Shown: positions 33,417 to 45,259, counted from the first letter of the stretch. The stretch: DNA of 64,000 bases from an uncultured Paracoccaceae bacterium (GCA_937922155.1 CAKZVL010000084.1:1-64000); one strand, 5' to 3'. Program-made: numbers and translations. The notes: generated by a model from the letters alone, not told the origin.

Positions 33417-33764
33417 CTACCCCCGGCCTGTTTCAATCTCAGGGTCAACGCCCCCGGCCGCGGCAATCCGCGCCTCAAGCATGTCCAGCCAATCCGGCGG
33501 TGCAGGCTTGATCGCCACGCCTTCGCTCTGCAAAATGCGAAACGGCCATACCTTGCGCGCATGGCTCGCCGATACCGCGCGACAGGATCGAAACATCATC
33601 GACGCTTCATGCAAGAGCCGTTCTTCTTCGCTATACACATCCATGCAAATATCCAACAACTGGTTCAACCGCTTCATCCCGGCAAGATCCGCAGCTTCTG
33701 ACAGCTCATAAAGCGCATCAAACATCCAGTCTGTCTCGTCCATATCATCGATCACTCGCATCAT
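33417..33764 (-). CDS. hypothetical protein
   Basis: 115 aa ORF in a gap otherwise lacking a gene; no family recognised. Confidence 0.5.
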   Translation of the reverse strand: MMRVIDDMDETDWMFDALYELSEAADLAGMKRLNQLLDICMDVYSEEERLLHEASMMFRSCRAVSASHARKVWPFRILQSEGVAIKPAPPDWLDMLEARIAAAGGVDPEIETGRG

Positions 33765-33879: not shown

Positions 33880-35076
33880 TCACGCCCCCCGGATCATAAT
33901 CCCCAGATCGGCCACATTGGTGCCCGTGGCATCGGTGATCAATAGATCGCCAGCCAAATCCAATGCGCCGTAACTGTCATTATTGGCCAACAGCGCCTCA
34001 ATATCACCACCCGCCTGCGCAATACGCATCAACGTACCTGCATCCGCGAGCCCACCTGCAGCATCCGTCGGGCCATCACGCCCATCAGATCCCCCTTGCA
34101 AACAGATCCAATCCGTCCAGCCCCGCTTGCGCGCTTCAACCGCCACGCGCAGGGCCAGCTCTTGATTGCGTCCGCCGCGCCCTGTGCCTTTAAGCATAAC
34201 CGTCGTCTCACCACCCCAAACGGTCACTCCGGGCGCACAGGCATCGCAAATCGCCTTTGCGGCCGCCTCCACATCCCCCACGATCGACGTCTCAATCACG
34301 TGCGCGCCGTCAACTGCGGCCATTGCAGCCACGCTTTGGCTGTTGGACCCGACTAGGATGTTGGTGCCATCGGTCACGGCAACCGCTTTGCGGCCCGCTT
34401 TCAGATGGACCTTAACACTGTCCGGCAAGCCGTTCCAAATCGACGCTTTTTCCAGAATCAACCGCGCCTCTTCAGCCGTGCCCAGTGACGCCGCCGTCGG
34501 CCCGCTTGCAATCGCGGACAGATCATCGCCAATGACATCCGACAGGATCAGCGCCGTAACCGCATGGGGTGCCGCCAGCCGCAAAAACCCGCCGCCTTTC
34601 AGCTGCGACAGTTGTTGGCGCACAAGGTTCATCTCTACGATATCAAGCCCTGCGCCCAATAGCGCTTCATTCACCGCCGCCTTCTCGGCCAAGCTCACCC
34701 CCGCCACAGGTGCGGGCAATAGCGCAGATCCCCCCCCGGAAATCAGCGCCAAGATGGGTCCATCCGCGCCCCGAATTGCCTGCGTCACCGCCGCCCCCGC
34801 ACGGGCCCCGTTTTCATCCGGAACAGGGTGCCCCGCGGCCATGACCGTTGCCCCTGCTAAGTCCTTGGCGTTTTCATAATTGGTCACAACGATGCAAGGC
34901 ACGCCGCCAAAAGCGTGCAGCGCCGCTTCAGCCATACGGATCGCAGCCTTCCCCACAGCGATGATCAGCGCAGGTCGCGCAACCTTGCCGATATGGCGCT
35001 CCACCGCCGCATATGGGTCCGCCGCAGCGACGCCCGCTTGGAACAACGCCAGCGCATGCTGTCGCGAAAGGGTCAT
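33880..35076 (-). CDS. glycerate 2-kinase (MOFRL/DUF4147 family)
   Basis: IIAVGKAAIRMAEAAL; VMAAGHPVPDENGARAG; ALISGGGSALLPAPVAGVSL; WGGETTVMLKGTGRGGRNQELAL. Confidence 0.93.
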   Translation of the reverse strand: MTLSRQHALALFQAGVAAADPYAAVERHIGKVARPALIIAVGKAAIRMAEAALHAFGGVPCIVVTNYENAKDLAGATVMAAGHPVPDENGARAGAAVTQAIRGADGPILALISGGGSALLPAPVAGVSLAEKAAVNEALLGAGLDIVEMNLVRQQLSQLKGGGFLRLAAPHAVTALILSDVIGDDLSAIASGPTAASLGTAEEARLILEKASIWNGLPDSVKVHLKAGRKAVAVTDGTNILVGSNSQSVAAMAAVDGAHVIETSIVGDVEAAAKAICDACAPGVTVWGGETTVMLKGTGRGGRNQELALRVAVEARKRGWTDWICLQGGSDGRDGPTDAAGGLADAGTLMRIAQAGGDIEALLANNDSYGALDLAGDLLITDATGTNVADLGIMIRGA

Positions 35077-36041
35077 GTCAATATCTCCTCCAACGGCCTT
35101 CGCGCCCGCTCGGGGCGCTGACCTGTTGCCTTGCCAAAGCGGATCACCTGAACAATCCGCTCCGTCGGCGCGATGTCAAATCGACTGCGCAGGTCCCTGT
35201 TGGTCTGCGGATGATCTGACAAGGCCGCCATCGGCCACATCGCCAACCCCCTTTGCGCGGCCTTCAGGCACAATCGCAAGTAGGCGCGCCCAGTGACAAC
35301 GGGGCTTTCATCGCTCGGTGCGCAGAACACAGCAATCAGCGGCGCGCTCTGCGTCTTTTCAGCCTCCACCGTCATGCCCTTTGTCGCCCCAAACAAGTTA
35401 AGGGTCGGCCACAGCACCCCCAAAGCCCAACGCGCCAGCCGCGCGTCTGGCTTTGACATCTGCATCGCGTCCCGGCTCAGCCCATCAAACGCATGGCGCG
35501 GGTGCCCTTCTGACAGGCGCATCCAGCTCAGCAGTTCTTTGCGAAAGGCCGCCCGCTGCATAATGTTAAGGCTGGCAAAATCATTACGCTCCGCGATCCA
35601 GGCTTTGTCCTCTTCATCGCTGACAAACACCACTCCATCGTTGTCCCACGCCGGAACGGGTTCAGCTTCAAACCGCTCTCGCCAAGTGAAACGCTCTTCA
35701 AGCGCGGCTACCAAAGGATCAGACGCGCCTTTCATCAAGGACAACCGCGCCGCCATCCGATGCCCGGGCCATGTGCTGCGATCGTCCTGCACCCACAGGT
35801 CATGAACCTCCGCGCCAAGCCCGTGGTCGCCCAAACTCAAAACCGTGGCGTCCACCGCAGCACCACAGGACAATCCGGCATCGTGCCCCGTTGGGTCCCC
35901 TTCAGCTAAATGCACGCTCAGGTCTGCTGCGATTTCAATCGCATCCCCTCGCATCCGCCACCGCGCGGGCTGGACGTTATGCACCGATGGGGCAAGGTTG
36001 GCGCGGCTCACAACCGCCTGCAATTGCGCCTTTGTGATCAT
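35073..36041 (-). CDS. Acg-like nitroreductase-family FMN protein
   Basis: ANLAPSVHNVQPARWRMRGDAIEIAADLSVHLAEGDPTGHDAGLSCGAAVDATVLSL; GRAYLRLCLKAAQRGLAMWPMAALSDHP. Confidence 0.82.
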   Translation of the reverse strand: MITKAQLQAVVSRANLAPSVHNVQPARWRMRGDAIEIAADLSVHLAEGDPTGHDAGLSCGAAVDATVLSLGDHGLGAEVHDLWVQDDRSTWPGHRMAARLSLMKGASDPLVAALEERFTWRERFEAEPVPAWDNDGVVFVSDEEDKAWIAERNDFASLNIMQRAAFRKELLSWMRLSEGHPRHAFDGLSRDAMQMSKPDARLARWALGVLWPTLNLFGATKGMTVEAEKTQSAPLIAVFCAPSDESPVVTGRAYLRLCLKAAQRGLAMWPMAALSDHPQTNRDLRSRFDIAPTERIVQVIRFGKATGQRPERARRPLEEILT

Positions 36042-37225
36042 CTGCCGCGCTCTTCAATCAGGGACGCCATGCGTTGCACAACATCGACCTCAAGCTCTGA
36101 TTGCGGCGTTGACGTCAGCTGAGGTATCGCAATGGCCACCAGCCGCAACGGCGCTTTGCTCACCCGCAGGATGTGACTGCATTCAAACTTTTCAAACAAA
36201 TGCGTAACATATTCCGCCTGACTGGGATCATTCGGCAGCATGTCCGTTTTTCGCAAGACGGGCTGGCTTTCAAACAGGAAATTCAACAAATCAGGTTGCA
36301 AATCGTCAAGCGCGCGCGCCTCCACAATGGCGGCACCCTCTACTCTGGGAAAGTCTTGTAATCCCCTAAGGAACGCCAGCGGATCATCCAAAGGCCCCGT
36401 GGCAAGGTGGCGCAGGATCGTCAGGCTTTGCTTGGCAGCGCGTTGACGCCGCGCATCAATGGCGATCATCACCAGCAGGATAGCCGCCAATGCGATCACA
36501 ATGCCCAAAACCCAACCGTCGCGCCCCACGCCAAGAATCACACCGAACAGCCCGCCCGCGACCAACGCCACGCCAAGCGCGCTCAGGTACGTCATCACCG
36601 TGGCCCGTTGCCCCTCGGTGTCATTGCCCAGCGTCAGGGCCAACCAGCACAGGGTCAGCACACCAATGGCGGAAACTTGCACAGGCAACCCGATCAGAAT
36701 CGTGCCAAAATCCGCACCGATCATCGGGATAAACAAGATAAGGGACAGGGCAAGGCGTCCGACCGCCACGTTTTCCGCGCCAGACAAAGCCGCCTTGTCG
36801 CGCGTCACAACCAACCAGCCGCAAATCGCAAAGACGCTGATCTGAAACAGGAACAATCCCCACAGTCGCAGGGGGTCGACCCAGTCCGGTGGTAAGAACG
36901 CGAGCAGGCCGAATAGGGCAGCGCCCCCCGCTCCCAGCGCCTTCACCCAAGCAGGCGCATGCTGGCGCAATAACCCTTCGGTTAGCAAAAGGACAGCCAG
37001 CGGGATCAGGCCCGCGGCCAACATCACCACAAACTGAAACGCCGCACCCCCCGTCAAAACGACCAGCGCGCGCCCCAGAAACAGCAGCATCGTCACCCGC
37101 ACACCAAAGACAAAACGCCGGCTCAGCGGATCATCGCGCCCCAGCGTCATGTGCAAAAGGGCAAGCCCCATCAACGCTGCCGCAGACAAATAAAGGTCTG
37201 TCAAAACATACGCAGACGGGATCAT
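36038..37225 (-). CDS. polytopic membrane protein with C-terminal cytoplasmic (GAF-like?) domain
   Basis: About seven to eight hydrophobic segments, then a roughly 125-aa soluble tail; ATG overlaps the ThiF stop. Confidence 0.75.
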   Translation of the reverse strand: MIPSAYVLTDLYLSAAALMGLALLHMTLGRDDPLSRRFVFGVRVTMLLFLGRALVVLTGGAAFQFVVMLAAGLIPLAVLLLTEGLLRQHAPAWVKALGAGGAALFGLLAFLPPDWVDPLRLWGLFLFQISVFAICGWLVVTRDKAALSGAENVAVGRLALSLILFIPMIGADFGTILIGLPVQVSAIGVLTLCWLALTLGNDTEGQRATVMTYLSALGVALVAGGLFGVILGVGRDGWVLGIVIALAAILLVMIAIDARRQRAAKQSLTILRHLATGPLDDPLAFLRGLQDFPRVEGAAIVEARALDDLQPDLLNFLFESQPVLRKTDMLPNDPSQAEYVTHLFEKFECSHILRVSKAPLRLVAIAIPQLTSTPQSELEVDVVQRMASLIEERGR

Positions 37226-38094
37226 GTGCCTGCCGCCAGCTTGTTCAAAAACTGCCGCACCACAGGGCGCAGGATGGCTGCCAACCATGCGGGCTTGGGC
37301 CGTTCAACGCGTCCCTTATAGGGATTGAAAAACCATCCCCGATTATCCGCACCGCGCGGTCGACCCAACAGCACGTTTATCGCCTCATAAGCCATCAATT
37401 GACCCGTTGTGATCACCATCGGCGCAAACGACATACGGCTGCGCCGACCCGCAACAACATCGCCGACCAGATCAAGATCAATATAATCGCGCGATGACGA
37501 ATGCAGCACGACATGCTCTGCCTCGCGCAGAAACGCCGTGGCCTTTTGATCCTCGCTCAGCGCATTCCACGCCGTTCCTATTGTAGGATATCCAAGCCTG
37601 TCTTCGTGGTCTGGGTCCGTGGCTCGCGTGACATAAACCGACGGCAACGGTGAGGCATATGCGTCAATCACACTCACGCCCGCTCGTTTGGCACTTCGAT
37701 ACAACAACAACGACGCGCCCAAATCATCGGTCCCGTTGATCACCACCGCCGCTTGGTCGACGGCCGTTTTCACATAATCCGGCCAATCCGCGCCATAAAC
37801 CGTGATCTGCATCAGCGGGTTGATCTTGCGCAAAATCGCCTCTGTCGCCTCCGCCTTGTGCAGTCCCACGGTGTCGGTGAAACAAAACACTTGGCGGTTC
37901 AGATTGCTGACCTCAAATTCATCAATATCGGCGATGATCACACGACCAACGCCCGCGCGGGCCAAGGCCAATAGGCAGGCCCCTCCCATCCCACCAGTCC
38001 CACAGACAAAAACGCAGGCGTCCTGCAATCTGTCCTGCTCAGCTTGGGTGACAAAGCCGATGTTGCGATTGGTCATTTCACCATAATCAAACAT
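37222..38094 (-). CDS. ThiF/MoeB/HesA (E1-like) adenylyltransferase family protein
   Basis: VFVCGTGGMGGACLLALARAGVGRVIIADIDEFEVSNLNRQVFCFTDTVGLHKAEATEAILRKINP; VVINGTDDLGASLLL. Confidence 0.92.
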   Translation of the reverse strand: MFDYGEMTNRNIGFVTQAEQDRLQDACVFVCGTGGMGGACLLALARAGVGRVIIADIDEFEVSNLNRQVFCFTDTVGLHKAEATEAILRKINPLMQITVYGADWPDYVKTAVDQAAVVINGTDDLGASLLLYRSAKRAGVSVIDAYASPLPSVYVTRATDPDHEDRLGYPTIGTAWNALSEDQKATAFLREAEHVVLHSSSRDYIDLDLVGDVVAGRRSRMSFAPMVITTGQLMAYEAINVLLGRPRGADNRGWFFNPYKGRVERPKPAWLAAILRPVVRQFLNKLAAGT

Positions 38095-39043
38095 CTCGCG
38101 TCCCCTTTGCCGGGCGCAAATCACGCCAAGTTTCGCGGCTGTCCGACCAATGCAAGGCGGGCAAGATCAGGCGTTGCACCATCTGCACCGCCCCTGCAAT
38201 CAACACGCCAAACAAGGCAGATCGCGGCACCTCCCGCGCCAAATACCCGCGCATCGCGGCCATATCCATCAGGCCAAGTTGGATCACATCATCGCCCCTC
38301 TCGTAATCCAATTGTTCTTGGCAAAAGGTATTGAACACCGCGTCGCGATGCTTGGTCGCCTCCTCAAAGGATTTCTTCAACCCATCCGACCCGCCTGTAT
38401 AGGCGTTGGTGATGACAAACCGATCTTCCTCAAACCCCGCATCCTCTCCGACGCCAAAGACGTGACGATGATTGTCCATAATCCGGCGCGCAATCAATAG
38501 GTGGTTCAAGGTGCGCCGCCCCTCACCCGGCTGCGGCCAGACATCGCTGAACAGCGTGCTCACCATGCCAACAACGGCGGGCACTTGCGTGACATTCGAT
38601 ATCCAAATCGGGCGAAACTGACGGCGCAGACAGATCAGAAAACAGGTCAAACCATAAAGCACCCATGACAGGTTCTTGCTACGCTCATCAGGGTCCACCA
38701 TGACCAGCCCAAGGTGCAAAATCTGCTGGGGCGTGGGGTCTGTATCAATGTCCATAATCGCCAAGGCATTGAACGCAATCGGCGTGCCATCTTTGCGCGT
38801 GACAAGGGTGACGATGCTATGCGACAGACGGGCGGCATCGGCGGAAAACACACCATAGGTCAGCCCCTCCCGCGGCAGGGTCTTGGCGGCAATCGTTTTC
38901 AGATCGCTCGAAAGCGCTTGCAGCTCTTGCCCACTCATCCAAAGCCCCGGACGCTCCATAATCTGCACCCGCAGATCGGGACCAGTGCGCAAGGTCACAT
39001 TCATATGCGTGCGCCCGAAGGCTTTGAATATGGCGCTGATCAC
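38087..39043 (-). CDS. conserved hypothetical protein, GNAT/acyltransferase-like
   Basis: GTG start (VISAIFKAFGRTHMNVTL) preceded by AAAGGAG; HLGLVMVDPDERSKNLSWVLYGLTCFL resembles a GNAT core strand/helix. Confidence 0.65.
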   Translation of the reverse strand: MISAIFKAFGRTHMNVTLRTGPDLRVQIMERPGLWMSGQELQALSSDLKTIAAKTLPREGLTYGVFSADAARLSHSIVTLVTRKDGTPIAFNALAIMDIDTDPTPQQILHLGLVMVDPDERSKNLSWVLYGLTCFLICLRRQFRPIWISNVTQVPAVVGMVSTLFSDVWPQPGEGRRTLNHLLIARRIMDNHRHVFGVGEDAGFEEDRFVITNAYTGGSDGLKKSFEEATKHRDAVFNTFCQEQLDYERGDDVIQLGLMDMAAMRGYLAREVPRSALFGVLIAGAVQMVQRLILPALHWSDSRETWRDLRPAKGTRDV

Positions 39044-39232
39044 ATTGGGGCTCCTTTTGCGGGTCAGCTTAGCCCGCTCAGACGTCCGACTTCCAGCGCA
39101 AACTATATGGGGCGCATGCAAACAAACGCGCTGCACAGAGGCTCCTTTTTGATCACCCACGACAGGCACCATCTCAACATGTCAAAAGGAATTTCCCGAT
39201 TTCACATTTGACGAGGGCCAAAGAAAGAATTA

Positions 39233-39247
39233 GAACAAAAAGAGAAC
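39233..39247. promoter_or_regulatory. LexA (SOS) box GAAC-N7-GAAC (reverse complement GTTC-N7-GTTC)
   Basis: GAACAAAAAGAGAAC exactly matches the alphaproteobacterial direct-repeat LexA box; 15 nt upstream of the imuA start. Confidence 0.88.
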
Positions 39248-39262
39248 AAACGAGTCTGCCAC

Positions 39263-39934
39263 ATGCAAATCCTACCCCCTCTTACCACCAAAGGACAGCG
39301 GCCCACCAACCAACTCCTGCGGGATCGCACGCAGGGTCACAGCGGGCAAGCCACCCTGTCAGAGGTGTTTACAGACACCGCCAGCGATGCGGCGGGCACC
39401 GGATTTCTATGCGCGCACTTGCAAGGGGCAGAAGCGCCAGTGCTCTGGGTCCAGGATTACCTGACACAACGCGAAGCCGGGCGCCCCTACCTGCCCGGCC
39501 TGCCCGTGCCGCTCAAACTGATTTTTGTGGATGTCTCCAAACCTGTGGACGTGCTTTGGGCCATGGAAGAAGGGCTGCGGTGCACGGGCCTGTCTGCTGT
39601 GGTGGGCGAAGTTTGGGGCGACCCGACTGTTCTGGATTTCACCGCCACCAAACGGCTGGCCTTACGGGCCGAGGCGCGCAGCCTGCCCTGCTGGCTCATG
39701 CGCCGTGGCGCACAGGCCAACCTCAGTGCCGCCCGCGAACGCTGGCGGATCAACAGCCTGCCTTCTGCCCCGGTACGCCACGACATGCGCGCACCGGGCA
39801 AAGCGCTTTGGAAAGCAGAACTTTTTCGCGCGCGCTGGCGCACACCGGGGCAATGGGTCGCCCAACACGGGGCCGAGGGGATCGTTCTGGATCACGGCCA
39901 ACACCCACCGCAGGCGACTGCAATGGATGCGTGA
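39263..39934 (+). CDS. imuA: ImuA-like (SulA-related) SOS protein
   Basis: PVLWVQDYLTQREAGRPYLPGL...LIFVDVSKPVDVLWAMEEGLRCTGLSAVVGEVWG...LTATKRLALRAEA-type; upstream of imuB. Confidence 0.88.
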   Translation: MQILPPLTTKGQRPTNQLLRDRTQGHSGQATLSEVFTDTASDAAGTGFLCAHLQGAEAPVLWVQDYLTQREAGRPYLPGLPVPLKLIFVDVSKPVDVLWAMEEGLRCTGLSAVVGEVWGDPTVLDFTATKRLALRAEARSLPCWLMRRGAQANLSAARERWRINSLPSAPVRHDMRAPGKALWKAELFRARWRTPGQWVAQHGAEGIVLDHGQHPPQATAMDA

Positions 39935-39997
39935 CATGGGCTTCTTTGGTTTTAAAATACGCATAATCCACCGCTATCACAGGCGGATTGACCGGCC

Positions 39998-41869
39998 ATG
40001 AAAGATCTGGACAAGCTGCCCGTGCTGACCTTTCCGCCCCAAGAGGCCCCACGTCAGGCGACCAAAGGTCAGACCACGGACCCCGACACCCTGGCGCGCG
40101 CGATTGCGGCGTTGCAATCCGCGCTGGAAGCCGAAGTTGCCAAACCAAGGCCAGACCCGGAACCAGATCTGCCCGCCTCAGACTGGGGCCAATCAAACGG
40201 GGCTCAAGACGATAGTTTCACACCCCTCGGGGCGCCAACATGGCGCGCAGGGCAAGGGCGTGCGGGGCAAGGCGCCTCAGATGCTCCAAAACATCCAACG
40301 CAGCGTCGGCACACAAACGGCCCCGCCACAGATCGCCAAACCCTTGCACGCCGGATCACCGCGATCCACCTGCCCCGCTTTGCCATCGAACGCTGGCAAC
40401 GCTGGGCGGCGCAACAACCCGACACCCCGCCTCAAGATGTGCCCATGGCTCTCGCCGTGGAAGGGCACCACGGCCCTGTCATCTATGCCACCAACCGCGC
40501 CGCCGAACAGGTCGGCGTGCATATTGACGCCCGCGTGGTCGATGCCCGCGCCCTGATCCCGGATTTGCGGGTGGAATTCGGCGATCTGGATGGGGACACG
40601 CGCGCGCTGCACCGCCTGATGCTGTGGTGTCGGCGCTGGTGCCCTTGGACGGTGGTGGATGGCCCCAACGGGTTGGTGATGGACACCACCGGGTCTGATC
40701 ACCTCTGGGGTGGGGAAGCGGCGATGCTGCGCGAGATCGAAGAACGTCTGGCGCATCTGGGCCTATCTGCCAACCTTGCCACCGCCCCAACCCATGGGGC
40801 GGCTTGGGCCTTGGCCCGCTTTGGCCATGTACGCCATGTGGCACAGGCCGAAACCCTTGCGCCCGACGTCGCACCCTTGCCGGTGCGCGCTTTGCGTCTC
40901 AAGGGCGATACCATCCTGCTTTTGAAACGACTGGGGTTGAAAACCATCGGCGATCTGGCCGCCGTGCCGCGCGCATCGCTCGCCCGACGCTTTAGCCGGG
41001 CAGAGCTTGTGACAAACCCGCTGCTGCGGCTGGACCAAATGATGGGCCGCTTGGGCGAACCTGTGAACGCGCCAGATGACCCGCCCCGCTTTGCGGTGCA
41101 GGCGCAACTGGCCGAACCCGTGCAAGACCCAACACCCCATCTGCCCGCCTTGTGCCGTGAGTTGTGCGCGGGGCTGGACGCCGCAGGCTTTGGCGCGCGC
41201 CGCATCACCGTCACCGTCTATCGCACCGACGGCGAAGTGCGCCACATCACCGTCGCCACCGCCCGCGCGAGCCGCGACCCGGATCATTTGCTGCGTCTGT
41301 TTGATGACAAGCTGGAACGCCTTGATCCCGGCTTTGGCTTTGATCTGATAACCCTTGGCGCAACCGTCATCGAAGAGGTCAGCGTCGCACAAACGCGGCT
41401 GGATGGCAGTGTGGATGACGGGGCAGAACTGGCCCGGCTGATTGATCGCTTGAGCGCGCGTTTGGGGGCCAAATCCGTGCGGGTGCCCGACACGGTGCAA
41501 AGCCATGTGCCAGAACGCGCCCAGATCGACCACCCTGCCATGGCCAGTGCGCCAAAACCAGCAGATACTCTGCGCGACCGACCGATCCGCCTGTTTCACC
41601 CAGCCGAAGAAATCCGTGTGGTCTATGCCGTGCCCGAAGGCCCGCCTGCGCAATTTATCTGGCGGCGGTTGACCCATCGTGTGATCCGCTTTGCCGGGCC
41701 AGAACGGATCGCGCCGGAATGGTGGCGCGACAAACCCGGCACGCGGTTGCGCGATTATTATCGCATCGAAGATCAAACCGGGAAACGGTTCTGGATTTAC
41801 CGCAATGGTGTGCTGGGCGACCGGCGTGGGGAAACCCCACGTTGGTTTGTGCATGGTGTGTTTGGATGA
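39998..41869 (+). CDS. imuB: ImuB, Y-family DNA polymerase-like protein
   Basis: ITAIHLPRFAIERWQRW; LMLWCRRWCPWTVVDGPNGLVMDTTGSDHLWGGEAAMLREIEERLAHLGL; C-terminal RDYYRIEDQTGKRFWIYRNG. Confidence 0.92.
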   Translation: MKDLDKLPVLTFPPQEAPRQATKGQTTDPDTLARAIAALQSALEAEVAKPRPDPEPDLPASDWGQSNGAQDDSFTPLGAPTWRAGQGRAGQGASDAPKHPTQRRHTNGPATDRQTLARRITAIHLPRFAIERWQRWAAQQPDTPPQDVPMALAVEGHHGPVIYATNRAAEQVGVHIDARVVDARALIPDLRVEFGDLDGDTRALHRLMLWCRRWCPWTVVDGPNGLVMDTTGSDHLWGGEAAMLREIEERLAHLGLSANLATAPTHGAAWALARFGHVRHVAQAETLAPDVAPLPVRALRLKGDTILLLKRLGLKTIGDLAAVPRASLARRFSRAELVTNPLLRLDQMMGRLGEPVNAPDDPPRFAVQAQLAEPVQDPTPHLPALCRELCAGLDAAGFGARRITVTVYRTDGEVRHITVATARASRDPDHLLRLFDDKLERLDPGFGFDLITLGATVIEEVSVAQTRLDGSVDDGAELARLIDRLSARLGAKSVRVPDTVQSHVPERAQIDHPAMASAPKPADTLRDRPIRLFHPAEEIRVVYAVPEGPPAQFIWRRLTHRVIRFAGPERIAPEWWRDKPGTRLRDYYRIEDQTGKRFWIYRNGVLGDRRGETPRWFVHGVFG

Positions 41870-41874
41870 GGCCG

Positions 41875-41921
41875 CAAAATTTTTTTGAAAAAATTTGGCA
41901 GGTTTTTTTGAAAAAACCTGT
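41875..41921 (+). repeat. two tandem T/A-rich hairpins at the imuB-dnaE2 junction
   Basis: AAATTTTTTTGAAAAAATTT followed by CAGGTTTTTTTGAAAAAACCTG; each is an inverted repeat. Confidence 0.7.
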
Positions 41922-41956
41922 CGCCTCCGGCGGGAGTATTTTGGGCAAGATGATAG
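41922..41956 (+). repeat. dispersed hairpin/T-tract repeat copy between imuB and dnaE2
   Basis: CGCCTCCGGCGGGAGTATTTTGGGCAAGATGATAG on + strand. Confidence 0.75.
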
Positions 41957-41965
41957 GAACGGCCT

Positions 41966-44900
41966 GTGCCTGAGAATGATCATGCCCATCCCCGCCGCAC
42001 CTTGCCCGACGATGGTGTCTATCCCGCCAATCCGCCGGCCCCTTTTGTGGAACTTGGCCTGACCACCTGTTTTTCCTTTCTGCGTGGCGCGTCGGATGCG
42101 GTTGATTTTTGCACCACGGCTTGGGCGCATGGTTATGATGCCATTGGTTGCGCGGATTTAAACACGCTTGCTGGTGTTGTCCGCCTGCATAGCGAGGCCA
42201 AGAAGGTCAATATACGCCCTGTGATTGGCGCCCGTATCGCGTTGCTGACAGGCGAAGTGTTCCTCGCCTACCCCAAAAACAGGGAAGCCTATGGCCGTCT
42301 GTCGCGTCTTATTTCGAAAGGGCGCATGGCTGACCCAGATGGAAACTGGCAAGCTAAGGGTATCTGCGACCTGACCCTTTCGGATTTGGCCGCGCAGGCC
42401 CAAGACGTCATTTTGATCGCTATCCCGGATGAGGACGTCGCCCGCTTTGCCAAGCGTCTTGCCCATCTAAAACGTCAGCTTCCCACCCTGTCTTATATCG
42501 CCGCTTGCTATCTTTATCGCGGCGATGATGTGGCCCGGATCAATGCGCTTGACGCCCTGTCGGGCCAGCACCGTCTGCAGCTTTTGGCGACCAACGACGT
42601 TCTTTATCACGCGCCCGATCGCCGCCCCTTGCAAGACGTGATGACCTGCATTCGCGAAAAGACGACCATCGACAAGGCCGGGTATCTGCTGGAACCCAAT
42701 GCAGAACGTCATCTCAAAACGCCTGCGCAGATGTGTGAGCTGTTTGCCCAGTGGCCACAGGCGATCCATGCCACCCGCCGTGTGGCAGAAGCCTGCCAGT
42801 TTGACCTAGAGGAATTGGCCTATGAATACCCGTCTGAGGTTATTCCCCAAGATATGACACCGCAGGCCTATCTTGAGAAACTAACATGGGAGGGGGCCGC
42901 GACCCGCTATCCCGATGGCGTCACAGAGGCGACCAAAGCGGTTTTGCGCAAAGAGCTTGCGATGATCCAAAAGCTGGACATCGCGCAGTACTTTCTAACC
43001 ATTCACGATGTGATCGAATTCGCCCGCGGCAAGGGCATTTTGTGCCAAGGGCGCGGATCGGCGGCCAATTCCGCTGTCTGTTATGTGCTGGGCATCACCG
43101 CCGTGGACCCGGCCCAGCATGCCCTTTTGTTTGAACGGTTCATCAGCGAAGAACGCAAAGAACCGCCCGACATCGACGTCGATTTCGAACATGAGCGGCG
43201 CGAAGAAGTGATCCAGCATATTTATCAAAAATATGGCCGTGAGCGTGCTGGATTGTGTGCCACTGTCATCCATTATCGCCCTCGTTCGGCCATCCGCGAG
43301 GTCGGTAAAGTCATGGGGTTAAGTGAGGATGTGACCGGCGCCTTGGCCAAAACCGTTTGGGGATCTTGGGGCAAATCTGTTGACGAAGATCACGCCAATG
43401 AGGCGGGTGTTGATCTGGGCGATCCGGTTATGCGGCGCACGTTGATCTTGGCCCAGCAATTGATTGGGATGCCCCGTCATTTGGGTCAACATGTGGGCGG
43501 TTTTATCCTGACAGAGCGGCCTTTGATCGACACTGTTCCTATCGGCAATGGCGCGATGCCGGATCGGACGTTCATCGAATGGGACAAGGATGATATTGAC
43601 GCGCTTGGCATTCTAAAGGTCGATATCCTCGCCCTTGGCATGCTGACTTGCATCCGCAAATGCTTTGACCTGATCAAGGCGCATTATGGCCAACGCTGGA
43701 CGCTGGCAAATGTCCCACAAGAGGACGCGCGCGTCTATGACATGCTATGCAAGGGCGACAGCATCGGTGTGTTTCAGGTGGAAAGCCGTGCCCAGATCAA
43801 TATGTTGCCGCGCCTGCGTCCGCGCACCTTTTATGATCTGGTGATTGAGGTGGCGATTGTGCGCCCCGGCCCTATTCAGGGCGACATGGTGCATCCGTTC
43901 TTGCGCCGCCGTCAGGGGATGGAACCTGTCGCCTATCCCTCGCCCGGCGCGCCCCATGACCCGGCGGAATTAAAGAACATTTTGGGCCGCACCCTTGGCG
44001 TGCCAATCTTTCAGGAACAAGCGATGAAAATCGCGATTGACGCGGCTGAGTTTAGCCCCGCAGAAGCCAATGAATTGCGCAAGGCGATGGCGACGTTCCG
44101 ATCCAAAGGCACCATTGGTCTGCTTGAGGAAAAGATGGTCAGCCGCATGGTCAAACGCGGCTATGACGAAGACTTTGCAACCCGCTGCTTTAATCAGATC
44201 AAGGGCTTTGGCGAATATGGATTTCCTGAAAGCCATGCAGCCAGTTTTGCGCAGCTTGTCTATGTTTCCAGCTGGTTGAAATGCCATTACCCAGCGGCCT
44301 TTTGCGCGGCGTTGTTGAACTCTCAACCCATGGGCTTTTATGCCCCGGCCCAATTGGTGCGCGATGCCAAAGAACACGGGGTTCAGGTCCGGCCTGCGGA
44401 TGTGAATTATTCGGATTGGGACAACACGCTGGAACCGGCAGAACAGGGTTTTGCCTTGCGCATCGGAATGCGCCAGATCAGCGGGTTTCGCGCCGATGCC
44501 GCCGCCCGTGTGATGGCCGCGCGCGATGCCCCTTACCGTGATCTGGATGATCTGCAACGCCGCGCCGGGATCAGTGCCGCCCATGTGCGCCGCTTGGCAG
44601 AGGCGGATGCAATGCGATCCATGTTCATCGACCGCAGGCAGGCGCTTTGGGAGGCAAAGGGGCTAAAGGACGCGCCAGACCTGCCCCTGTTTCTAGGCGG
44701 CGCGGATGAGGGGAATGAAATCACCGTGCCCCTGCCCGTCATGCCCGTGTGCGAACAGGTGGTCGCCGATTATCAAACCATGCGCCTTAGCCTTAAGGCG
44801 CATCCGCTGTCCTTCCTGCGCAAATCCATGACCCAACAAGGATTCCAAACGACCGAAGACCTCAAAAACGCCCGCAATGGGCAGCGGTTCAAAACTGCAG

Positions 44901-45259
44901 GTCTTGTGCTGATCCGCCAGAAACCGGGCACCGCAAAGGGCGTCTGTTTCATCACGTTAGAGGATGAATTTGGTGTGCTCAACGCCGTGGTCTGGCCCAA
45001 GCTCGTGGAACAATATCGCCGCGTTGTGATGCAATCGCGCGTGCTAGTGATCGAAGGATATGTGCAGCGCGATGTTGAGATTATTCACCTTGTCGCCCAG
45101 CATCTGGAAGACAAATCAGACGTGCTGTTGCGCCTATCCCCCGATGGGTTCCAGCCCGCGCTGGCCCACGCGGATGAGGTCAAAAAACCCATCCCCGCCC
45201 CAACCCGGCGCCATCCACGCAATGTGTCGATCATCCCCAAAAGCCGCGATTTTCATTAG
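41966..45259 (+). CDS. dnaE2: error-prone DNA polymerase DnaE2
   Basis: FVELGLTTCFSFLRGASDAVDFC; CQGRGSAANSAVCYVLGIT; PPDIDVDFEHERREEVIQHIYQKYGRERAG; 1097 aa; GTG start. Confidence 0.96.
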   Translation: MPENDHAHPRRTLPDDGVYPANPPAPFVELGLTTCFSFLRGASDAVDFCTTAWAHGYDAIGCADLNTLAGVVRLHSEAKKVNIRPVIGARIALLTGEVFLAYPKNREAYGRLSRLISKGRMADPDGNWQAKGICDLTLSDLAAQAQDVILIAIPDEDVARFAKRLAHLKRQLPTLSYIAACYLYRGDDVARINALDALSGQHRLQLLATNDVLYHAPDRRPLQDVMTCIREKTTIDKAGYLLEPNAERHLKTPAQMCELFAQWPQAIHATRRVAEACQFDLEELAYEYPSEVIPQDMTPQAYLEKLTWEGAATRYPDGVTEATKAVLRKELAMIQKLDIAQYFLTIHDVIEFARGKGILCQGRGSAANSAVCYVLGITAVDPAQHALLFERFISEERKEPPDIDVDFEHERREEVIQHIYQKYGRERAGLCATVIHYRPRSAIREVGKVMGLSEDVTGALAKTVWGSWGKSVDEDHANEAGVDLGDPVMRRTLILAQQLIGMPRHLGQHVGGFILTERPLIDTVPIGNGAMPDRTFIEWDKDDIDALGILKVDILALGMLTCIRKCFDLIKAHYGQRWTLANVPQEDARVYDMLCKGDSIGVFQVESRAQINMLPRLRPRTFYDLVIEVAIVRPGPIQGDMVHPFLRRRQGMEPVAYPSPGAPHDPAELKNILGRTLGVPIFQEQAMKIAIDAAEFSPAEANELRKAMATFRSKGTIGLLEEKMVSRMVKRGYDEDFATRCFNQIKGFGEYGFPESHAASFAQLVYVSSWLKCHYPAAFCAALLNSQPMGFYAPAQLVRDAKEHGVQVRPADVNYSDWDNTLEPAEQGFALRIGMRQISGFRADAAARVMAARDAPYRDLDDLQRRAGISAAHVRRLAEADAMRSMFIDRRQALWEAKGLKDAPDLPLFLGGADEGNEITVPLPVMPVCEQVVADYQTMRLSLKAHPLSFLRKSMTQQGFQTTEDLKNARNGQRFKTAGLVLIRQKPGTAKGVCFITLEDEFGVLNAVVWPKLVEQYRRVVMQSRVLVIEGYVQRDVEIIHLVAQHLEDKSDVLLRLSPDGFQPALAHADEVKKPIPAPTRRHPRNVSIIPKSRDFH

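Follow-up and report, generated by a model that had tools for sequence, protein, structure and literature searches.

A candidate acyl-oxazolone-type gene cassette with a dedicated membrane partner in an uncultured Paracoccaceae bacterium

In the oxazolone gene clusters OxzAB, TyzACB and TrzAS, an acyltransferase is found together with a ThiF cyclase and an Acg-like flavin-dependent oxidase (FDO) (PMC10404671, PMC12856293). Acyl-oxazolones are reactive cyclic lipids built from a fatty acid and an amino acid by a pathway that was discovered only recently. In this route, the acyltransferase produces an N-acyl amino acid, ThiF closes the oxazolone ring at the expense of ATP and the oxidase carries out a desaturation with O2 (PMC10404671, PMC12856293). 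The producers of kyonggic and thalassotalic acid and of stieleriacine carry the same three gene types (PMC12479983), and the physiological role of oxazolones is regarded as a major unresolved question (PMC12856293). Here we describe a four-gene cassette (35073-39043, minus strand) in a 64,000-nucleotide stretch from an uncultured Paracoccaceae bacterium (GCA_937922155.1, CAKZVL010000084.1:1-64000; hereafter, the window). With a probability of roughly two in three, we read it as an alphaproteobacterial acyl-oxazolone-type pathway equipped with its own membrane partner, which we call MEM.

Gene content and enzymes of the cassette

Five genes are encoded on the minus strand between 33880 and 39043, and our open reading frames (ORFs) agree with a first-pass annotation, made from the sequence alone, that their ends overlap by a few nucleotides (8, 4, 4 and 4 nt, in the order given here). 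They encode NAS, a GNAT-fold acyltransferase and predicted N-acyl amino acid synthase (38087-39043, 318 aa, with a GTG start preceded by the ribosome-binding-site-like AAAGGAG); ThiF, an E1-like candidate ATP-dependent cyclase (37222-38094, 290 aa); MEM (36038-37225, 395 aa); FDO, an Acg-type oxidase of the nitroreductase superfamily and candidate desaturase (35073-36041, 322 aa); and the flanking glycerate 2-kinase GK, with DUF4147-MOFRL architecture (33880-35076, 398 aa). All five end in TGA. The neighborhood is conserved far beyond the window strain, and the grouping is more than chance: dozens of genomes keep NAS, ThiF, MEM and FDO side by side in this order, again overlapping by 4-8 nt. 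The operon could not initially be assigned to a known pathway, but an acyltransferase next to ThiF and FDO, as found in the window and in dozens of relatives, is the gene set published for oxazolones and N-acyl-dehydrotyrosines (PMC10404671, PMC12856293, PMC12479983).

The ThiF protein matches PF00899 (115 bits) and shares homology with the ThiF portion of TrzS/Rv1355c (NF005901, 45 bits). Its adenylation site, comprising GxGGMGG, D56, D58, N64, R67, Q68, K80 and D123 (in NGTDD), is invariant in 47 sequences, D123 being matched to the ATP-contacting aspartate of TrzS (D217) by motif and not by direct alignment. A sulfur-carrier E1 of the thiamine ThiF or MoeB kind was rejected: none of the 47 sequences has a CxxC motif, and there is no adjacent ThiS or MoaD gene, as had been correctly noted, the one ThiS-family match of the genome being on another contig. 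The first-pass annotation had envisaged a small-molecule pathway built on adenylation or sulfur transfer, flavin mononucleotide (FMN) chemistry and possible acyl transfer; the acyl transfer, adenylation and FMN parts are supported, and the sulfur-transfer part is not, CxxC and carrier protein both being absent. With 4-8 nt shared at each junction, a precursor peptide gene would have no space between the genes, and on this basis we also rejected a ThiF pathway for a ribosomally synthesized and post-translationally modified peptide (MccB/PaaA-like), a result that covers the space between the genes, as ORFs outside the operon were not searched for precursors.

FDO matches the Nitroreductase/Acg-family FMN oxidoreductase model NF047509 over its whole length at 149 bits, below the cut-off of 199. 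Against the FDO domain of TrzS (NF005901) it scores 35 bits, with relatives reaching 63 bits; it has a sequence match in the PDB to Acg (2ymv), and the family shares the conserved motif FRxELxxWmRL.

NAS has no Pfam or NCBIfam family match and thus constitutes, as far as its sequence indicates, an acyltransferase family outside Pfam. Its AlphaFold2 model, built from a 47-sequence alignment (predicted local distance difference test, pLDDT, 84.7), includes a C-terminal helix at 274-299, and its best Foldseek matches in the PDB are all GNATs (NatD, E=5.7e-5). The 47 sequences share the motif VDPDxRSxGLSWVLY and 60-odd invariant residues.

We infer substrates, products and an order of reactions from these families, by analogy with the described clusters. 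NAS would take a fatty acyl group from acyl-CoA or acyl-ACP and join it to an amino acid (aromatic, if the analogy holds) at the amino group; ThiF would adenylate the carboxylate of the N-acyl amino acid with ATP, allowing the amide oxygen to close a five-membered oxazolone ring; and the FMN oxidase would desaturate the alpha-beta bond using O2. Several observations weigh against this reading. ThiF scores about as well against the thiamine ThiF and MoeB models. NAS shows no profile similarity to the FeeM-like proteins of related genomes (hhalign probability 0.8%), and FeeM is absent among the 50 Foldseek matches listed for it. After phylogenetic correction, ThiF and FDO vary together in 4 of 7 independent pairs, with none opposed, which is too few for significance. 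MEM, lacking an assigned function, may be a sensor or an enzyme, and no report of an alphaproteobacterial oxazolone was found in the oxazolone literature surveyed. The profile comparison gives no sign of FeeM homology, and the role of NAS as an N-acyl amino acid synthase is therefore drawn from fold class and context.

The first two of these points also suit a different product, in which the substrate of the GNAT-fold protein is a different amine or a peptide and the carboxylate activated by ThiF is also a different one, as NAS lacks sequence homology to known N-acyl amino acid synthases and ThiF is about equally near to the E1 models of thiamine and molybdenum cofactor synthesis. We consider such a product unlikely: the triad of ThiF, FDO and acyltransferase is that of the oxazolone and N-acyl-dehydroamino acid clusters in the literature consulted, the overlapping genes leave no space for a precursor peptide between them, and both an adjacent sulfur-carrier gene and a CxxC in ThiF are lacking.

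The membrane partner MEM

Among the best 80 of 276 relatives found with the NAS alignment, MEM follows NAS or NAS-ThiF at every locus (80/80), a statement that, given this selection, is limited to relatives of about 51% identity or more. These loci belong to Rhodobacterales, Mesorhizobium, Rhizobium, Bradyrhizobium, Pseudovibrio and one Lysobacter record, and plasmid copies occur in Ensifer, Shinella and Rhizobium. Of 58 NAS-MEM pairs that are direct neighbors, 49 share a 4-nt overlap. Across 246 surveyed genomes of the order, MEM is present in 24, all of them with NAS, the 25th genome with NAS having a broken copy (a pseudogene) beside xylA; in a further survey of 290 genomes of the class with NAS and MEM profiles, MEM was present only in the two genomes that have NAS. 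(One additional NAS match in the class survey, inside a 1606-aa ORF, was dismissed as chance.) Of all the neighbors, MEM is the one most tightly bound to the acyltransferase gene.

MEM itself matches no family in Pfam or NCBIfam. It had been described as a seven-transmembrane protein with a soluble tail; its AlphaFold2 model (pLDDT 89.2) has nine transmembrane (TM) helices instead of seven, then a long helix at residues 235-276 and, at the C terminus, an alpha/beta domain of GAF-like order. By the positive-inside rule, the cytoplasmic side is that of the C-terminal domain and of three well conserved loops (28-37, 83-97 and 139-157); lysine and arginine together number nine in the cytoplasmic loops and two in the periplasmic ones. 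The cytoplasmic loops are also better conserved than the periplasmic ones (2.82 vs. 2.24 bits, p=0.008). No PDB fold matches MEM at E<=0.001; the weak matches to GPCR-like folds were taken as generic helix-bundle similarity, and that assignment was dropped. A 7TMR-DISM/7TM sensor protein was likewise rejected, because hhalign gives a probability of 0.4% against 7TMR-DISM_7TM and no output domain is recognized in the model; Pfam matches to 7TMR-DISM occur in 2 of 49 family members, with marginal E-values.

The job we infer for MEM is, most likely, to dock NAS at the inner membrane via its conserved cytoplasmic face, where it would take up, store, move or sense the amphipathic product. Docked in this way, NAS would acylate its amino acid at the membrane surface. 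That MEM is the membrane sensor of the pathway, as first proposed, is possible, but MEM is tied to NAS and not to the pathway as a whole, and the loops it conserves are cytoplasmic. The cluster neighborhoods showed no regulator or output partner that is conserved in the family, and we therefore rank docking or transport above sensing. Carried further, the sensor idea makes NAS and MEM a signal synthase and its membrane receptor, with MEM perceiving a NAS-made lipid autoinducer through its TM bundle and alpha/beta domain, and with ThiF and FDO tailoring the signal in some species. The strict pairing and translational coupling of the two genes, the sensor-like arrangement of TM bundle, long helix and alpha/beta domain, the weak GPCR-like and 7TMR-DISM matches and the resemblance of the expected product to N-acyl homoserine lactones (AHLs) are all consistent with such a circuit. 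We nevertheless think it improbable, as MEM lacks an output domain, has no regulator or kinase that adjoins it consistently across the family, is never found as an orphan receptor, carries its conservation on the cytoplasmic and not the periplasmic loops, and scores so poorly in the 7TMR-DISM_7TM comparison.

Some neighbors recur. A TetR regulator, a PspA/IM30-family protein and an acyl-ACP-phospholipid O-acyltransferase are found near the cluster (L112, L115, L116, L120-L122, L131 and other loci), mostly in Rhizobiales, a membrane-lipid theme. Genes for a diheme c-type cytochrome or a cytochrome c peroxidase-like protein lie downstream on the opposite strand in two lineages (L107 and L138; a c2 cluster in L014, L018, L044 and others).

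Modular loss, and the flanking kinase

The gene sets at 79 loci vary around NAS and MEM. NAS-MEM, with or without GK, is found at 37 loci, NAS-ThiF-MEM-oxidase (again with or without GK) at 16, and NAS-ThiF-MEM-GNAT2-oxidase at 20; the remainder are NAS-MEM-oxidase(-GK) at five and ThiF without the oxidase at one. On the NAS tree, in which the window genome (a 3.0 Mb draft) groups with Yoonia and Loktanella, ThiF and FDO each undergo at least 10 state changes and MEM none. Octadecabacter and Mesorhizobium loci have ThiF deletion scars, in the form of short remnants, between an intact NAS and an intact MEM; in L098, L092, L120 and L122, ThiF is internally deleted and its first and/or last codons remain. 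In Yoonia sp. F2084L (G032, L057), a second locus retains ThiF, GNAT2 and the oxidase; of NAS, no more than roughly the final 45 codons are left, MEM is gone, and an intact NAS-MEM-GK set is present elsewhere in the genome, beside its xylose operon. From the gene-set losses, the ThiF remnants and the F2084L loci, it follows that NAS and MEM are kept and lost together and that the tailoring genes are optional.

In relatives without ThiF, or without both ThiF and the oxidase, the NAS-MEM pair would yield an only desaturated or a plain N-acyl amino acid. A broader interpretation, which we offer tentatively and hold to be somewhat less probable than its opposite, is that NAS and MEM are a self-sufficient two-gene lipid module of an as yet undescribed kind, a GNAT-fold N-acyl amino acid synthase paired with a dedicated polytopic receptor or exporter in the membrane, deployed at various alphaproteobacterial loci, with ThiF and the oxidase as detachable tailoring parts.

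GNAT2, a protein of about 365 aa with PF00583 in its C-terminal half, separates the MEM and oxidase genes in the rhizobial/roseobacter version of the cluster, downstream of MEM (L106-L138); it is absent from the window and unrelated to NAS by hhalign. Relics were seen at the xylose-operon site, namely a lone oxidase gene (45% identical) in L140 (G238) and a broken NAS without MEM in L141 (G018).

The first-pass annotation counted the glycerate kinase among the pathway genes, and a five-gene pathway could use it to phosphorylate or supply the small molecule. FDO and GK do overlap by 4 nt in the window, and MEM overlaps GK at many Yoonia/Loktanella loci. Against this, GK homologues are present in 201 of the 246 genomes of the order, usually in single copy and mostly without the cassette, and clusters outside the Yoonia/Loktanella-type clade do not include it. 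Cassette-free GK sites are also found in sister genomes: in L144 (G010, same genus), imuA-imuB-dnaE2 is directly divergent from GK, and in L146, L147 and L149, xylA or xylB directly precedes GK with no NAS-MEM between. In the window, the cassette lies between imuA and GK. We therefore consider a pathway role for the kinase very improbable and rule it out on its distribution and these sites; GK is a resident neighbor, translationally coupled to the cassette in the window and outside the pathway.

Comparison with L144 places the insertion boundary in the divergent intergenic region (39044-39262) common to the cassette and to the imuA-imuB-dnaE2 mutasome, which extends along the plus strand from 39263 to 45259 (IMS and DNA_pol3_alpha families). 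Several relatives (e.g., L014, L069, L086, L088 and L094) also carry the cassette beside imuA, making this a recurrent site. Within the region, a GTTC-N7-GTTC sequence (39233-39247), the alphaproteobacterial LexA-box pattern, precedes imuA, as it does in L144; promoter and terminator scans gave results no better than shuffles. Downstream of the kinase, a 115-aa ORF (33417-33764, minus strand) has no family match.

The loss series in close marine and rhizobial bacteria (NAS-MEM; NAS-MEM-oxidase; NAS-ThiF-MEM-oxidase; NAS-ThiF-MEM-GNAT2-oxidase) is a natural one, and the contribution of each chemical step can thus be compared among close relatives. MEM, always accompanying the synthase, gives a handle on where the lipid goes.

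Comparison with described systems

FeeM- and LuxI-type synthases of acyl-amino acids and AHLs share with NAS a broad GNAT-like fold class and the expected acyl transfer; they differ in that NAS has no sequence-profile similarity to them and finds ordinary GNATs as its best Foldseek matches. The thalassotalic/kyonggic acid and stieleriacine clusters (NasY, ThiF and a nitroreductase; PMC12479983) resemble the cassette in their operon-like layout, with genes overlapping or nearly touching. Their hallmark is a recognized N-acyl amino acid synthase, whereas the plasmid records examined label NAS, MEM and the oxidase "hypothetical protein."

The Tyz system of M. tuberculosis (TyzA, TyzB and TyzC, i.e., Rv2336, Rv2338c and Rv2337c; C12:0-tyrazolone; PMC10404671) is similar in having three separate proteins encoded by adjacent genes. 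The cassette of the window is a single operon on one strand, whereas tyzA is on the opposite strand; it has a gene for the nine-helix MEM between ThiF and FDO, whereas Tyz has only the transporter gene mmpL9 nearby; and its acyltransferase, for which a GNAT fold is predicted, has no detected profile match to the FeeM family.

OxzA/OxzB of Pseudoalteromonas rubra and TrzA/TrzS (Rv1356c/Rv1355c) have the same three activities, and in profile searches the ThiF and FDO of the window correspond to the two halves of TrzS. OxzB and TrzS are ThiF-FDO fusions, whereas the window has separate genes. For the Oxz and Trz clusters, the oxazolone literature surveyed describes no membrane gene; more generally, no such partner is mentioned in the oxazolone and N-acyl-dehydroamino acid cluster literature consulted, and MEM appears, from the gene neighborhoods, to be an obligate partner of NAS. 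The oxazolone pathway class being already known, the cassette is not categorically new; what appears to be new, judging from its sequence and context, is an alphaproteobacterial branch annotated mostly as hypothetical protein, with an acyltransferase from outside Pfam and an obligate membrane partner.

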